Source of the DNA: Candidatus Eiseniibacteriota bacterium
Lineage (GTDB): Bacteria; Eisenbacteria; RBG-16-71-46; CAIMUX01; WJJG01
Reading direction: 5' to 3'
Assembly (NCBI GenBank): GCA_023129715.1
Contig: JAGMBO010000008.1
Span: 1-58,339 of the forward strand
DNA length: 58,339 nt
The position numbers and the translations under genes were made by a program. This document shows, one piece after another, positions 27,880 to 36,771 of the stretch; the first letter of the stretch is position 1; each line of letters opens with the position of its first letter. The notes below the pieces were generated by a model. That model did not search any database. It was not told where the DNA came from and saw only the letters and a program-made list of their open reading frames with translations.

Positions 27880-29579
27880 GATGGAGACCTCCGGGCGAAT
27901 GGCCACGCGGTTCGAGATCGACGCCGACGGGTGCGCGCCGGCCCGGGGCCGGCCTGGCGGCACTGGGGGGCGCATGCTTGGCGATCGCGCTGCTCGCATG
28001 GGCACCCGACGATAGCCGAGCCGCCGCGCGATTCACCATCGATACCGAGCCGGTCTGGCAGGTCGCCGACGACCGGCCGATCGCGCAGCCCGAGATCAGG
28101 CGCTGGAACCAGATCCGCGCCTATGTCGATGCACAGTGGCTGCGTCCCATGGACCGGTTGCTGGCGATTCACCGCACGTCACCGGCGCGCGATCTGAACG
28201 CCTGGGATGCCGTGCCCGCGTCGAGCTGGTTCACGCCCGGGCGGGCGGGCAAGCCGCCTTGGATGGCGCCCGCGCGGACCATCCCCGCACCGGGCGCGCA
28301 GCAGGAACCACCGCGGCCCGATCATAGCGGCCCGCTCGCCGTCAGCGAGGCCTGCCTGCAGGGTCCCGCCAGCCACCTGATCGTGCGCGACGCGCGCGGC
28401 GCGCGCTATTGGATCGTCTTCGATGAACCCGAGGCCCCCGACCGCCGCACCGCCGCCGCGGTGATCAGCAGCCGGCTGTTGGACGCCGCCGGTTATCCGG
28501 TCCTGCCCACCGTGATCGATGCGCTGGCCCGTGAGGAGCTGATCCTGGATGCCGATGCGCGCCGGGTCGGGGAGTTCGGGGGACGCCGCGGCTTGACACC
28601 CGAGGCACTCGATCGTTTCTTCGCGCGCCTGCTCTCCGCCGACCCCGAAGCGGGGCGCGTGCAGAGTACCCGGCTGCGCATCGCCGCCGGCCGCCTGCCG
28701 GAGAGCACGATCCTGGGCGGTTTCTCCCCCAGCGGTGTGCGCCCCGACGATCCCAACGACCGGATCCCGCACGAAGACCGCCGCAGCCTGCGCGGGCTGC
28801 GGATCCTCGCGTGTTGGCTCGATCTCGCCGGCATCCGCCAGGACCGCACCCTCGATCTCTACCTCTACTCCGAGCGATATGTGCGTCACCACCTGGGCGG
28901 CTTGGGGCTCACCCTCGGCAACCATTCCCGCGGGCAGGAGGATCTTCCGAGCCGCCTGCTCTACCCGCTGGATGGCTTCGGAACTCGGGGACTCGACCCG
29001 ATCACCTGGTCGCCCGCCGAACCCTATCTGCCCTTCGATGAAATGCAGTGGGGCGATGCCTTGTGGGGTGTGCGCCTGTTACTGGCCTTCACCGACGCGG
29101 AGATCGCGGCCGCCGTGGCCGCCGGACGCTACGGAGATCGTTCCATGGAGGCCTATATCGCCGGCAGTCTCCAGGAACGGCGGGATCGGATCGGGCAGGG
29201 CTGGCTGGCACAGGTCAACAGCATCGGCGGTTTCGCCGTCACCGCCGCTCCCGGCGGGCGCTGGTCGCTGACGGCGGCGGATCTCGGTGTGCGGCATGGT
29301 TTGCGGCAGGCCGAAGATGTCGCCTACTTGCTCTCCATGCGCCTGCCGGCGACCGGCGAGACACTCGGCTATCAGTCCCGCAGCGCGGATCCCCTCACCT
29401 TCGACCTCTCGCCCTTCACCCCAGCCGCCTGGCTCCATCGCCAGGACCCGCGCCGCTACGCGGTGGCCGAGCTGCGTTGCTGGGATCACACCGGTCGCGC
29501 CCTCACCGGGGCGACCCGCGTGCATCTCTACTTCGACCGCGATTCCGGCCCGCGCATCGTCGGCATCGTCAGAGACTGA
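27876..29579 (+). CDS. Exported protein of unknown function, coupled to the Omp85-like barrel
   Basis: About 567 residues from the GTG at 27876, which overlaps the preceding stop (GTGA), suggesting translational coupling. A basic N-terminus with one hydrophobic segment (LAALGGACLAIALLAWA) predicts export or anchoring. The rest is a mixed alpha/beta protein with conserved-looking blocks ('NAWDAVPASSWFTPG', 'RGLRILACWLDLAGIRQDRTLDLYL', 'GLTLGNHSRGQEDLPSRLLYPLDGFG'). The HEDRRSLRGLRILACWL...D and N...D pattern loosely recalls HipA/CotH-like kinase-fold proteins, but I cannot assign it. Its 3' end overlaps the convergent signalling gene by 52 bases. Confidence 0.82.
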   Translation: MRWRPPGEWPRGSRSTPTGARRPGAGLAALGGACLAIALLAWAPDDSRAAARFTIDTEPVWQVADDRPIAQPEIRRWNQIRAYVDAQWLRPMDRLLAIHRTSPARDLNAWDAVPASSWFTPGRAGKPPWMAPARTIPAPGAQQEPPRPDHSGPLAVSEACLQGPASHLIVRDARGARYWIVFDEPEAPDRRTAAAVISSRLLDAAGYPVLPTVIDALAREELILDADARRVGEFGGRRGLTPEALDRFFARLLSADPEAGRVQSTRLRIAAGRLPESTILGGFSPSGVRPDDPNDRIPHEDRRSLRGLRILACWLDLAGIRQDRTLDLYLYSERYVRHHLGGLGLTLGNHSRGQEDLPSRLLYPLDGFGTRGLDPITWSPAEPYLPFDEMQWGDALWGVRLLLAFTDAEIAAAVAAGRYGDRSMEAYIAGSLQERRDRIGQGWLAQVNSIGGFAVTAAPGGRWSLTAADLGVRHGLRQAEDVAYLLSMRLPATGETLGYQSRSADPLTFDLSPFTPAAWLHRQDPRRYAVAELRCWDHTGRALTGATRVHLYFDRDSGPRIVGIVRD

Positions 29580-31174
29580 ACCGGCTCGATGCCCTCGGTC
29601 TCCGAAATCATCTCGACGAACACCCGTACCAGCTCCGGATCGAACTGACTGCCGGCCCGTTCCCGCAGAATGAGTAGCGCTTCCCCCACGTCATAGGCGG
29701 GGCGATGAGGGCGGGCGTGGGTTAGGGCATCGTAGGCGTTGGTGATCGCCACGAGTCGCGAAGCCTGCGGAAGCGACTCACCGGCCAGACCCTCCGGCAG
29801 GCCGCTGCCATCCCAACGCTCATTGAGGTGATAGACCCCCTCGGCGACCTCGGGCAGATGTGCCGCGGCAAGCATCCGCCGCACACCGGTGGCCGCCTGC
29901 CGCCGCAGCGCGAGCCGCTCCTCTTCACTGAAAACCCGCTGTTCGCTGAAGAGCTGATCGTACTGCTCGAGAGCGCCCAGATCGTGCAGGCGGGCGACGA
30001 AGGCAGCCAGGCGCGATTCCTCCTCCGAGAGCCCGCACTGGGCCGCCAGCCGCGCAGTCAAACCGAGCACGCGGGCCGAGTGTCCGGCCAGCTCCGGATA
30101 GCGCTCTTCGACGGTGGCGACGAGCTGGGCGGTCGTCTCGACAAAGGAGTGGCGCGCCCCGGCGAAGGCGGTGGCATGGTCGATCGCCATCACGGCCGCG
30201 CGGGCGAGGACATTGAGCAGATGCACGTCGAGGCGATCGAGTGGCTCGCCATCCTCACGTTCGCCCCCGGCCAGGATGGCGACCAGCCCGCCATCCTCGC
30301 GGCGAGCAGGCGTGATGTGCGTCAAGCCGGCAGCGGAGAGCAGGCGCACTTCGGCCTCCGCGGAGGGATAGGAGGCGAACTCATCACTCATCATCGTCCG
30401 CCCCTCGCGGGCCACCGTGCCGCAGACGAAGCCCTCCGCCTTGAGGCGCAGCCGGCGGACGGCCTGATCGTCGAGGCCCCGCCAGGCTCTCGGCACCAAG
30501 CTCTCCCCTGGCTCGGTCTGCATCAGCACGCAGGCGCGCACCAGTCGGAGATCGCGCACGACCGCCTGGGCCAGCTGACCGAGCACCTTGGAGAGATCGC
30601 CCCGACGGCTGGCCGCGTCGACATGCTGGAGCACCGCTCCAATGCGCTGCAGGTAGACATCCATCTCGTGATGGAACTGGCGTTGTTCATCGCGATGCTG
30701 GCGCGCCTCCTCCTCCAGCGCGCGGTTCTGTTGCCTGAGCAGGCGCAGATCAGAGAGTCGATCGAGGATCGTGCGGATCTTGATCAACAGCTCGCGCGGC
30801 GAGAAGGGTTTGACCAAGTAGTCGTCGGCGCCCAGACGGAGCCCCTGAATGCGCGCTTCGTTCGAAGGACTCCCGGCGATCAGAATCACCGGCAGGCGCG
30901 CCGTGCGCTCATCGGCGCGGATCGCCTCGAGCACCTGGAAGCCGCTCTTGCGCGGCAGGCGTACACCGATGACCGCGAGGTCGGGCTTGTGCCGGAGGAT
31001 CTCCTCGTGCGCCGCCTCGCCGTCGAATGCGGAACGGACCGCGTATCCGCGGCCCGTCAGCGTGATCTGCAGCAGCTCGATGACCCGAACGTCCTGCTCA
31101 GCGACAAGAATGCTCTCCTGCTCGCGCCGCTCCGAAAGGATCGGCGAAGAACCACGTATCGTCTTCTTCTCCAT
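29528..31174 (-). CDS. Pseudo-receiver / GAF / degenerate HD-GYP protein
   Basis: 548 residues: receiver-like domain (about 18-135), coiled-coil linker, GAF-like domain (about 190-330), HD-GYP-like domain (about 345-530). The phospho-acceptor Asp of the receiver is Gly (DLAVIGVRLP), although the conserved Lys (YLVKPF) remains. The HD domain keeps HSARV and HDLG but lacks the following Lys. The HP motif is missing, HHExxDGxGYP reads HLNERWDGSGLP, and GYP has become GLP. Both domains are therefore probably inactive as phospho-acceptor and c-di-GMP phosphodiesterase, and could act as binding/scaffold domains. ATG 31174 has a GGGGA-type site. The gene overlaps the upstream gene by 77 bases, and its 3' end overlaps the convergent gene by 52 bases. 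Confidence 0.88.
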   Translation of the reverse strand: MEKKTIRGSSPILSERREQESILVAEQDVRVIELLQITLTGRGYAVRSAFDGEAAHEEILRHKPDLAVIGVRLPRKSGFQVLEAIRADERTARLPVILIAGSPSNEARIQGLRLGADDYLVKPFSPRELLIKIRTILDRLSDLRLLRQQNRALEEEARQHRDEQRQFHHEMDVYLQRIGAVLQHVDAASRRGDLSKVLGQLAQAVVRDLRLVRACVLMQTEPGESLVPRAWRGLDDQAVRRLRLKAEGFVCGTVAREGRTMMSDEFASYPSAEAEVRLLSAAGLTHITPARREDGGLVAILAGGEREDGEPLDRLDVHLLNVLARAAVMAIDHATAFAGARHSFVETTAQLVATVEERYPELAGHSARVLGLTARLAAQCGLSEEESRLAAFVARLHDLGALEQYDQLFSEQRVFSEEERLALRRQAATGVRRMLAAAHLPEVAEGVYHLNERWDGSGLPEGLAGESLPQASRLVAITNAYDALTHARPHRPAYDVGEALLILRERAGSQFDPELVRVFVEMISETEGIEPVQSLTMPTMRGPESRSK

Positions 31175-32486
31175 CGTCCCCGTATCCCCCGCGCGAACTC
31201 CCTTGCCGAAGGGAGCGCAGCCAGTGGATGACGCGCTCGACCTCGGAGCGTTCGAACGGGCGGGGCAAGATCGCTCCCCCGGGTGGCGAGGTTCCCTCGC
31301 GCGGCACGCTGAGGGCCCCATCGACCGTCAGGCAGACCAGGGGAGGAGCTCCGCGCGTCGACGCCGGGCGCGCTTTCCAGTCCTCCAGAAGGCTCTCGTC
31401 GAGAAAGAGAGCCGTGCCCCCTTTTAGATCGGCCGGAAGGAGGGGATCATCCAGGTCTCGTGCCTCGAGGACATCGGCCCCCAGCTCGCGGAGGTGACGC
31501 ATGAGGAATCTCCGCGCCAGTGCCGAGGGCGAGACGATCCAGACCCGCTCGACGCGCGAATCCTCATCGCGGGCCCAGGGCGGCGCCTCGATCACCGCCG
31601 GGCAGGAGGACGACTCGGCTTGACGAGCATCCTCGACCTGAGTCGCCCCGGTGCGCGCAGAGGGGGGCCATGACTCGGAAGGAGATGCCCCGACCGGCAT
31701 GGAACTCACGCGATGAGGCGCGGCATCGGCTGTGGAGTCCACGGCCGGAGGCGCCGGCATAGTCGGCCCGGAGTCTGCCTCCACTGCCCCGGGGGGCATC
31801 GTCTCGGGGGCAACAGGTGGAGACGCAACTGGTTGAGATGCAGGCCGGTTCATCCGGAAGGCAGCCTGAGATGGGCCGGAGGCCGGAGATGGACCTGTAG
31901 CCGGAGATGGATCTGAGGCCGGGAATGGACCGGAGGCCGGAGCTGCCTCGGCTTGGCGCGAGTCCCGCGGCCCCGCATCGAGGCCGCGCGGGGAGCGGGC
32001 CGCCGCCGGCCGCACCGGAATGCTCCCGGCTGAAGTCAGCCACTCGAGCTGCTCCTGCCAGGCTTCCGCTTCCTTGCGCGTCCAGAGTCCGAGGACGCGA
32101 TCGACGCGCAGGGTCATCTCGCACTCCCCATCGTTGACTTGAAAGGACTCGAGCGTTCCCTCGGAGGAGAGCTGCGTTCCGCTGACCCAGCTCCAGGGCA
32201 GCGCCATGCGGACGTCATCACATTCGGCGACCAGCCAGAGCCCTTCCGCGGTTGCGGACGCCGCCGCGGGCTTCGCGGGGGCGCCCGCGGGGTGCTGCGC
32301 CTCGGAGACCGCCGCCGGCGGGGCGGCAGGGGTGCTCTCCCCCCCGGCTTCCGGCTCCGCAAACGCCGCGGAAGCGCTCTTCGCTCCATCCTGCACCAGC
32401 GTTCCCATCTCTTGGAGCAGATCCCCCATCAGCGAGAGGATCCTGCCGATCCGCCGGCCGCCGCCTGACTCACTCCGAGTCGTCAC
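31098..32486 (-). CDS. CheW-like plus receiver-like signalling protein with Pro/Ala-rich linker
   Basis: About 462 residues from the GTG at 32486 (an ATG 19 codons further in is an alternative). Residues about 80-150 resemble a CheW/scaffold beta barrel ('GLWLVAECDDVRMALPWSWVSGTQL'). A long low-complexity linker follows, rich in P/A/S with repeated PSPATGPSPASG. The C-terminal ~110 residues resemble a receiver ('VERVWIVSPSALARRFLMRHL', a central 'ALFLDESLLEDW', and 'ILPRPFERSEVERV' where KPF is expected), with the acidic pocket and Lys lost. It overlaps both neighbours, so the three genes form one operon. An adaptor role between the upstream transducer and the downstream pseudo-receiver is inferred. 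Confidence 0.75.
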   Translation of the reverse strand: MTTRSESGGGRRIGRILSLMGDLLQEMGTLVQDGAKSASAAFAEPEAGGESTPAAPPAAVSEAQHPAGAPAKPAAASATAEGLWLVAECDDVRMALPWSWVSGTQLSSEGTLESFQVNDGECEMTLRVDRVLGLWTRKEAEAWQEQLEWLTSAGSIPVRPAAARSPRGLDAGPRDSRQAEAAPASGPFPASDPSPATGPSPASGPSQAAFRMNRPASQPVASPPVAPETMPPGAVEADSGPTMPAPPAVDSTADAAPHRVSSMPVGASPSESWPPSARTGATQVEDARQAESSSCPAVIEAPPWARDEDSRVERVWIVSPSALARRFLMRHLRELGADVLEARDLDDPLLPADLKGGTALFLDESLLEDWKARPASTRGAPPLVCLTVDGALSVPREGTSPPGGAILPRPFERSEVERVIHWLRSLRQGSSRGGYGDDGEEDDTWFFADPFGAARAGEHSCR

Positions 32487-33669
32487 GCTCCAGCCCCCCT
32501 TCCGAAATCGAGACCGCCGCCTCCGACCCTGCATGCACCTCTCCGACGCGCACCATCATCGACCGCAGTCGCTCGCCCAACCGCTGCCAGGCCCGCTGCA
32601 ACTGCGCCGCCTCCCGGGAGAGATGACCCATCTCCTGACCCGCCCGGGACGCCGTCTCCGCCACCTTGCGAATCCGGGGCAGCCAACGATCGAGATTGTG
32701 CCGGCCGCCCTTTCCCCCACCCGTCAGGGTGCGTTCCAGGAGATCGAGGCTCTCGTCGATCCACTGACTCCACTCCGTCATCCGCCGCTTGATCTCGACG
32801 CCCTCTCGGCACCGCGCGCCGCGAGGCGTCACCGCCGTCCCGCCGCCGTTGAAGGCGGTGGCCACCTCGCCCCGCCACCGGCTGACACCCAAGCGCAGAT
32901 CGGCAAGCAACGCCAGCGGATCTTCGGGGGCCTCGCTCGGCGCCTGGGCTGAACGGGCTGTGCGGGCGAGGCGCCGCAGTTCCATCGCCAGCTCGGTCTG
33001 TTCGAGGAAACAATGCTCCGAGCGCCTGGCAATCTCATCGACCGAGAGCGTCTCCTCCCGCCAGTCCTGCTCCAGCAGACCTTGCAGTCGCGCGAGGCCA
33101 TCGCTCGACTCCCGCAGGCTCTCTGCGTGAAGGTCGAAGAAATCAAGCAGGCGACGGGTCAGCGGATGCGTCGTCCGCCCGCGCGGCCAGCCGGCTACAT
33201 CCAGACGGCCGGTGTGGGCCGCATCCAGCACGGCGGCGATTTCGCGGCGCAAGGTCTCCAGTTCCTCGACGGCGCGCACCCCGGCGCGATTCTGCTTCAA
33301 CAGGATTTGCACCCGCCGGCTGAGTGTATCGATTTCCCAGTCGGCCGCCGGCATGGCGGGGCCGCTCAGCTGGCGGGCGGGGCCGGCATCCATCAGGCGC
33401 AGCAGCCAGGTCACTGGGCGTGTCACCCGATCGCCCAAACGCAGGGCGAAGCCGGTGGCCAGCAGGAGGGCAACCAAGAGGAGGAAGAGAAAGAGGGTGG
33501 CACCCTCGACCGGGGCGAGAACTCCCGGGAGCGGCCCGGCGGGCCGCTCGAGCAGCCATATCCCCCCGACGCCGAGCACGACGACGGGGATCGAGAACGC
33601 CAGCAGCAACCGGGGGCGCAGGCTCGCGTGCCGCGCGCGATCACGTCTCCCGAGGCAGTGCCTCTCCAT
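32470..33669 (-). CDS. Membrane transducer-like protein with HAMP and coiled coil
   Basis: 399 residues. Two transmembrane segments (about 21-42 and about 57-80) enclose a very short periplasmic loop. A HAMP-like segment (DRVTRPVTWLLRLMDAG) leads into long helical coiled-coil sequence. The architecture resembles methyl-accepting chemotaxis proteins, but the conserved cytoplasmic hairpin tip that contacts CheA/CheW is not recognisable. ATG 33669 has GGGGGA upstream. It is the first gene of a three-gene operon with CheW-like and pseudo-receiver proteins and ends inside the start of the next gene. Confidence 0.75.
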   Translation of the reverse strand: MERHCLGRRDRARHASLRPRLLLAFSIPVVVLGVGGIWLLERPAGPLPGVLAPVEGATLFLFLLLVALLLATGFALRLGDRVTRPVTWLLRLMDAGPARQLSGPAMPAADWEIDTLSRRVQILLKQNRAGVRAVEELETLRREIAAVLDAAHTGRLDVAGWPRGRTTHPLTRRLLDFFDLHAESLRESSDGLARLQGLLEQDWREETLSVDEIARRSEHCFLEQTELAMELRRLARTARSAQAPSEAPEDPLALLADLRLGVSRWRGEVATAFNGGGTAVTPRGARCREGVEIKRRMTEWSQWIDESLDLLERTLTGGGKGGRHNLDRWLPRIRKVAETASRAGQEMGHLSREAAQLQRAWQRLGERLRSMMVRVGEVHAGSEAAVSISEGGLERDDSE

Positions 33670-34150
33670 GGCGATCCCCCGTTCCGCGCGGCAGAATGCA
33701 AGCTGCACGGTGCTCCGGATGCATTCCGCAGCGTCATCACCGGCAGCACCCCATGTGCAACGGCCGTGCCAAGTCATCTGCATGACCTGCGCGGACCACG
33801 CACACGGGACTCTGTCCGGTTCGGGGATCCGGCCTCCTCGGGTGGGACGAGATCCTCACAATCCTGGGCGCAACACCTCCAGCGACAAGGTGCGCTGGCC
33901 GTTAGCCGATCGGCTCCTATCCGCCACGAATTTCTGGCGCCGCTTGCGACGCGTCTTCGATCGCCGCGCGCAGTTGTTGTCGGGAACGCTCCCTTGTTCC
34001 CGCGCAACCCGTGGCACGCCCGTTGCTGAAGTCCCTGCTTGGAACCCGGTAGCGACAGGATGCAGCGACCCAAAATGGGTGTCAAGGGATTCCGTCCACA
34101 GGCCATCGGGTATCCGGCACGGACGGCAGCTTGCGCGGGAGATGGACACG
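33670..34150. other. Divergent regulatory gap
   Basis: 481 bases between the signalling operon (leftward) and the sigma-54-driven gene (rightward). It holds the sigma-54 promoter; I see no gene in it. Confidence 0.5.
34012..34027 (+). promoter_or_regulatory. Sigma-54 (RpoN) promoter
   Basis: TGGCACGCCCGTTGCT matches the -24/-12 consensus TGGCACGN4TTGCW at every fixed position, with correct GG-to-GC spacing. It lies about 125 bases upstream of the plus-strand gene starting at 34151 and nothing else faces it. Transcription would need an enhancer-binding activator not seen in the window. Confidence 0.75.
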
Positions 34151-34942
34151 ATGCGACCCCTTGAGAACTACATCGAGTTGCAGGGCAGCAATCGGGAACG
34201 CCGGCCGACCTATCACTTCATGATGAAGTGCCTGCTCTACTCGCGCATGGAGACCGGATTGGTCTCGAACAAGGACTACTACGATGAAGACGTCAACGTC
34301 TACATCGCCCACCTGCTTAACTCGTTCATCGATCCGAGCTACATCCAGCGGGCGGGCCGCTACCTCTCGAAGTACGACACCGAGGTCTTCGAGCGTCTGG
34401 GCGAATCGCAGGACGCCCGCCTGAAGTACACCCTCTACAAGACCAACGCCGACTTCCTGTTGGTCTCGCTGGGAATCTTCGACAATCCGGCGGTCGTCGA
34501 TCCGGCCAACACGGGAGGCGGCACGCACCCCGAGCGCCGATTCTGGCAACCGTCGGAAGAGGCCTATGTCGGCCGTGGCAAGACCTACTACCGGTTCGCC
34601 TACACATACAGCCAGCAGATCCACAACCCCCACGCGGCGATTACCGAGGTGCTCGAGAAGCTCAGCACCGGCTTTGAGAAGTACCTGCGCATCCTGGCGC
34701 ACATGCGCGGTGAGTATCTCAACCTGATGGACCGTCTCTCGCGCGGCGAGATCTACCACCTGGAGCGCCGCGTCGACGAGGCCCAGAAGGCGGGTGACGT
34801 GCGCACATTGCAGGACGAGTTCCTCGACCTGTTCCTCGAGTGGAAGAAGACGGGTGATGAAAGGACAAAGACCCGTCTGGAGAAAGTGGTTCGCCGAATC
34901 AAGAAGCTCGACACCGACTTCGCGTTCGAGTTGCCCAAGTAA
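34151..34942 (+). CDS. Conserved-looking cytoplasmic protein of unknown function under sigma-54 control
   Basis: 263 residues, start chosen by GGGAG 9 bases upstream (an ATG three codons earlier would sit on the ribosome site). No signal peptide or membrane segment. The sequence is helical and charged, rich in Tyr near the N-terminus ('HFMMKCLLYSRMETGLVSNKDYYDEDVNVYIAHLL'), with a C-terminal helical bundle (LERRVDEAQKAGDVRTLQDEFLDLFLEWKKTG). I do not recognise the family. The well-formed promoter and codon use argue it is real. A strong terminator follows at 35054-35096. It begins a monocistronic unit, so its role must be read from its sigma-54 regulation. Confidence 0.85.
   Translation: MRPLENYIELQGSNRERRPTYHFMMKCLLYSRMETGLVSNKDYYDEDVNVYIAHLLNSFIDPSYIQRAGRYLSKYDTEVFERLGESQDARLKYTLYKTNADFLLVSLGIFDNPAVVDPANTGGGTHPERRFWQPSEEAYVGRGKTYYRFAYTYSQQIHNPHAAITEVLEKLSTGFEKYLRILAHMRGEYLNLMDRLSRGEIYHLERRVDEAQKAGDVRTLQDEFLDLFLEWKKTGDERTKTRLEKVVRRIKKLDTDFAFELPK

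Positions 34943-35292: not shown

Positions 35293-36771
<1,479 letters not shown>

Follow-up and report, generated by a model that had tools for sequence, protein, structure and literature searches.

Promoters read by sigma-54 RNA polymerase together with an enhancer-binding protein, of which that of pilA is an example, and the chemosensory (Che) systems, which include the Pil-Chp and Frz types, are the described systems to which the locus studied here is most readily compared. It resembles the former in its -24/-12 elements and their spacing, in the presence of rpoN and in the many activator genes of the genome, and the latter in that a receptor-like membrane protein, CheW, a weak CheA-type ATPase, and receiver domains occur in one operon. 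A further likeness is to the HD-GYP cyclic-di-GMP phosphodiesterases, with which the operon shares an HD_5 domain combined with receiver/STAS and GAF domains. For uncultured phyla such as those considered here, function prediction is usually limited to domain names. These phyla are not named in the main text of a survey of sigma-54 regulons published in 2025 (PMC12316311), and the open-licence literature on sigma-54, chemotaxis, pili, and HD-GYP proteins in Eisenbacteria and Krumholzibacteriota yielded nothing on the gene or the module described below. The window, i.e., the whole stretch of DNA that was analysed, comprises 58,339 nucleotides from the genome of a Candidatus Eiseniibacteriota bacterium.

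The Sigma-54 Site of the Focal Gene

The initial annotation had reported a full match to the RpoN consensus at position 34012, well placed for the start of a downstream gene (the focal gene, 34142..34942, + strand). Both observations hold: the -24/-12 promoter sequence TGGCACGCCCGTTGCT (34012..34027, + strand) was confirmed in the window and matches the consensus in full. Sigma-54-dependent transcription starts ca. 12 nt past the GC of the -12 element, and by this rule the predicted transcription start should lie near position 34037, with a predicted leader of ca. 105-114 nt before the candidate start codons at 34142 and 34151.

Two exact copies of the 15-mer TGGCACG-N4-TTGC occur in the window (34012 on the + strand and 33757-33771 on the - strand), where 0.04 are expected, and none of 100 shuffles contained two copies. 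When up to two mismatches are allowed, the window shows no excess (18 observed vs. 18.9 expected), and genome-wide the exact 15-mer shows no enrichment relative to its reversed control (4 vs. 4); therefore, a single site by itself is weak evidence. The slightly relaxed 16-mer TGGCAYRNNNNWTGCW is found 12 times in the genome, with intergenic position checked for only part of these sites, vs. once for the reversed control. The case for the promoter is one of cross-species conservation and not of the single site.

The predicted 5' untranslated region of the focal gene holds a further element, GTGTCAAGGGATTC (34079..34092, + strand), which in relatives takes the form GTGTCAACGGGATTC. It is present in one copy per genome, always in this leader, in all five genomes of the window's family, and recurs in a two-mismatch form in family f2; the exact pattern was found in none of six other genomes of the order and in none of the reversed controls. 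This leader element may constitute an extra layer of control, possibly a site that acts at the RNA level.

Conservation of the Site Upstream of Orthologs

Within 350 bp upstream, spaced half-sites of the form GGCAY-N6-TGC precede 101 of the 114 family members examined (a test of the spacer without scoring, from which locus L047 is excluded). By the same half-site test, each of twelve other spacers, in the range of 0 to 12, was found before only 0-6 of the 114, and the opposite strand gave 7/114. A second approach scored the 350 bp upstream of the aligned match with a weighted consensus, at a threshold of 28 out of 32. The threshold was reached in 35 of 40 upstream regions of the set for the window's phylum, a set in which one locus is counted twice (L047 and L071, whose contigs agree in length and position), two copies come from one genome (L036 and L103), and one locus (L046) lies outside the phylum according to its kinship labels. 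The corresponding counts were 29/30 for the phylum that we designate G047, 17/18 for the G048 phylum and 6/14 for deep members of the G047 phylum, and most of a list of 14 sub-threshold regions scored 25-27 at the same distance. Among 12 loci from other lineages that were added later, four reached the threshold and six retain the spaced half-sites. At the same threshold the reversed motif was found in 0/102 regions, random windows of the same loci gave 7/1650, and the opposite strand gave 0/88 and 5/14, the latter five being sites that face the divergent operon discussed below.

Counted from where the aligned match begins, the site lies at a median offset of -110 (range -38 to -249). The information content of the columns within the site is inflated by the selection of sites; the columns flanking it carry almost no information and, therefore, it is the site itself that is conserved and not the surrounding stretch. 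The conservation of this motif before orthologs, which the initial annotation had proposed as a check, extends across lineages in which the protein drops to ca. 25-55% identity. The predicted promoter of the focal gene is, in our view, as well supported as computation allows.

The Focal Protein Family

The open reading frame of 263 residues described in the initial annotation is in frame from the ATG at 34151, and the alternative ATG at 34142 would give 266 residues. The protein had been considered to have no recognised family, and this is borne out by searches of Pfam, NCBIfam, PADLOC, and PDB sequences, none of which gave a match above the cut-off; a PDB profile search with the protein returned no match at E-values up to 10. 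Weak Pfam names (Sec10_HB, nSTAND2, DUF6809, TSNAXIP1_N, and others) were discarded because they fall below the cut-off and are inconsistent between members. An origin from a phage or a defence system was likewise rejected: viral contigs contained no relatives, and PADLOC gave no match to the focal protein. Nor does the protein show profile similarity to the proteins of the neighbouring operon.

A profile built from 14 relatives revealed the family in 45 of the 47 genomes of the window's phylum (Candidatus Eisenbacteria), in 18/20 genomes of the G048 phylum, and in 64/80 genomes of the G047 phylum, which includes a Candidatus Krumholzibacteriia locus. A broad sample contained it in 61 of 385 genomes, including 16 of the 338 outside the window's phylum, some of which are genomes of the G047 and G048 phyla met again (identical coordinates). 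In 106 distinct sequences, R35, D48, E49, D50, N52, Y54, Y99, D104, R145, Y150, K173, and Y181 are kept in ca. 90% or more. Structure prediction, also suggested at the outset, gave poor models; two AlphaFold2 runs (mean pLDDT 54.5 and 56.4) agree on an all-helical protein at low confidence, with only the C-terminal helices predicted confidently, and did not provide a usable fold. The protein family is new, and its set of conserved residues is strongly kept. Family f7 (L102, L104) carries a second copy, which lies beside amino-acid biosynthesis genes, including one for a PALP enzyme, and has a sigma-54-like site.

A Divergent Chemosensory-Like Operon

The initial annotation did not mention a second, perfect sigma-54 site, TGGCACGGCCGTTGCA (33756..33771, - strand), which is situated 240 bp from the focal promoter on the opposite strand and reads into a divergent operon of three genes. 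The first of these (32470..33669, - strand; start codon uncertain) encodes a receptor-like membrane protein of ca. 400 residues with, on inspection, two hydrophobic stretches, the remainder being helical. The second (31098..32534, - strand) is an open reading frame of 478 residues assigned via its relatives as a CheW-like and receiver-like protein; neither of these two proteins has a Pfam match of its own. The third (29528..31321, - strand) combines response regulator, GAF, and HD_5 domains according to Pfam, and inspection shows a degenerate GYP motif, GSGLP. With GSGLP in place of GYP, this HD-domain regulator may not degrade cyclic-di-GMP.

The operon is kept upstream of, and divergent from, the focal gene both in the phylum of the window and in that of G047. 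It encodes a membrane protein that is helical over a long part of its length, a second protein in which a CheW-like domain is sometimes joined by ATPase and receiver domains, and a regulator with receiver or STAS, GAF, and HD_5 domains. The clearest copy, at locus L103, contains CheW (1.2e-12), MCPsignal (2.9e-9), HD_5 (3.8e-32), and STAS domains. Elsewhere CheW scores just above the cut-off at L184 and L186 and just below it at L165 and L174, with no match in the window. MCPsignal exceeds the cut-off at L103 alone, is weak at L165 and L091 (0.013), and is not detected in the window; HATPase_c gives weak, sub-cut-off matches at L174 and L186 and none at the other loci scanned. Response_reg domains occur in the operon across L174, L184, and L186, and no methylation enzymes were seen among the scanned neighbours. 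By hhalign, whose probabilities may be inflated by coiled-coil composition, the window's receptor-like protein matches the receptor-like families of other lineages at 99.5 and 95.1%, and its second operon protein matches the counterparts at 97.4 and 66.1%. Homology is unsupported for the HAMP protein that adjoins the focal gene in the G048 phylum (5-35% against other receptor-like proteins). In the G047 phylum the sensing operon ends with a small HTH_17 (excisionase-like) protein (L157:3002-3298); it has relatives at L044, L168, L169, L175, L177, and L180, and at L186 it is fused to the frame of the CheA-like protein.

A sigma-54 site of its own precedes the operon in 16 of 25 genes of component 3 and in 6 of 7 of component 19, in addition to the window. 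Components 14 and 37, receptor-like genes from other Eisenbacteria, gave 0/8 and 0/4 at threshold despite the perfect site in the window. Three other conserved neighbours of the focal gene have no such sites: the counts were 0/22 for a nitrilase-like gene, 0/24 for IMP dehydrogenase and 0/23 for an alpha/beta-hydrolase. IMP dehydrogenase, named by inspection of the sequence, is the conserved convergent neighbour in the window (35293..36759, - strand), and outside lineages usually have the nitrilase-like gene on the upstream side of the focal gene and IMP dehydrogenase on the downstream side.

rpoN, Activators, and Other Sigma-54 Sites

The genome to which the window belongs (4.83 Mb in 186 contigs) does possess the machinery that a sigma-54 promoter requires, a point that the initial annotation had wished to see checked. 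It has two RpoN-type genes with a Sigma54_DBD domain (C50:5398 and C138:81577) and 31 Sigma54_activat matches, 26 of them with E < 1e-20, a domain family that also has matches in genomes without rpoN. In the G047 phylum, almost every one of 80 genomes shows a single RpoN-type gene, vs. two in this genome.

Further strong sigma-54 sites in the genome precede dnaK (L050), a gene for an Hsp33-like protein (L054), lptC (L051), and a type IV pilin gene (L003). The lptC gene lies on the same contig as rpoN and the pilin gene near an activator gene; a pilin gene beside an activator gene is a classical sigma-54 target. A sigma-54 site before dnaK is, to our knowledge, unusual. This set of sites suggests that the cue is to be sought in surface, envelope, or stress conditions. 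Of the functions that had initially been associated with sigma-54 control, i.e., nitrogen, surface, and stress, the surface/envelope or stress side thus receives support from the neighbours and the other strong sites. The nitrogen side does not: nothing specific to nitrogen was seen, and the nitrilase-like gene that adjoins the focal gene in many lineages has no sigma-54 site. No cognate activator of either promoter was found, and the inverted repeats present between the two promoters as candidate enhancer sites include none that is conserved among relatives.

Proposed Role and Alternative Explanations

We consider it reasonably probable that a real sigma-54 promoter drives the focal gene and that its product is a cytosolic partner or output of the co-located, sigma-54-controlled chemosensory-like module. 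Sigma-54 RNA polymerase would be held closed at both divergent promoters until a cue from the surface, the envelope, or stress leads an AAA+ enhancer-binding protein to open them; with only 240 bp between them, the promoters could be served by one shared activator. Expression of the receptor-like operon would then coincide with that of the focal protein, which would act as the dedicated cytosolic partner or output of the sensing complex. We infer this joint action from the neighbourhood and the sigma-54 control that the two have in common. In all probability the focal protein is dedicated to a sensing system that has not been described before. A more far-reaching proposal, for which we would claim somewhat less than an even chance, is that this sigma-54-driven system is ancestral to several related phyla and that the divergent chemosensory-like membrane complex and the hitherto unknown helical protein, with its conserved R/DED.N.Y/N.D/R/K/Y residues, form a new signalling or effector pair.

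The most serious alternative also accepts the sigma-54 promoter as real and gives the focal protein a role of its own, for instance in metabolism or proteostasis, so that it would share only regulation and location with the operon. A mixed regulon is indeed indicated by the strong sites before the genes for DnaK, the Hsp33-like protein, LptC, and the pilin, and in several outside lineages the focal gene is adjoined by the nitrilase-like gene and IMP dehydrogenase and not by the operon. The second copy in family f7 adjoins the PALP enzyme and other amino-acid genes, and the near-invariant charged and aromatic residues over the 106 sequences would suit a ligand-binding or active site. However, the receptor-like operon is adjacent in two phyla, and sigma-54 control extends to both of these units and not to the other neighbours, and we regard an independent role as rather unlikely, if well worth keeping in mind.

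It is far less probable, and in our estimate very much so, that some other DNA-binding protein uses the conserved site as its operator and that the resemblance to the sigma-54 consensus is incidental. A conserved spaced half-site is by itself no proof of polymerase binding, and the base in front of TGG, a purine here, departs slightly from the usual consensus. The GG and GC elements are, however, exactly 10 bp apart, 38-249 bp before the gene and always on its strand, and the same motif precedes the pilin gene beside the activator gene. In addition, rpoN is present in 78 of the 80 genomes of the G047 phylum, and the focal family is missing from both rpoN-less ones (G109 and G124), a comparison that has little power because nearly all of these genomes carry rpoN. 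A chance match that is no promoter can be dismissed as next to impossible, since the site, although no more frequent than chance in the window at two mismatches or than its reversed control genome-wide as an exact 15-mer, is conserved before orthologs: 101/114 carry the spaced half-sites, and in the scoring test the reversed motif reached the threshold in 0/102 regions.

The promoter sequence, its spacing and conservation, the presence of rpoN, the gene family, the conserved neighbourhood, and the second promoter are established computationally; transcription itself, a common activator, the partnership of the focal protein with the operon, whether physical or functional, and the nature of the cue are inferences.

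Comparison With Known Systems

For a nameless but near-universal gene, comparative evidence has here set the regulator class, the co-regulated partners, and the neighbourhood, and the locus offers a concrete test case for a sigma-54 regulon beyond the well-studied groups. It differs from the HD-GYP phosphodiesterases in the degenerate GYP motif of the window's protein, which on inspection reads GSGLP. The difference from Che systems is that most members of the operon show its domains weakly or not at all and that an HD-domain regulator is its last gene. In comparison with known sigma-54 targets, the focal gene belongs to no described family, and gene and promoter have been kept together in three phyla or more.
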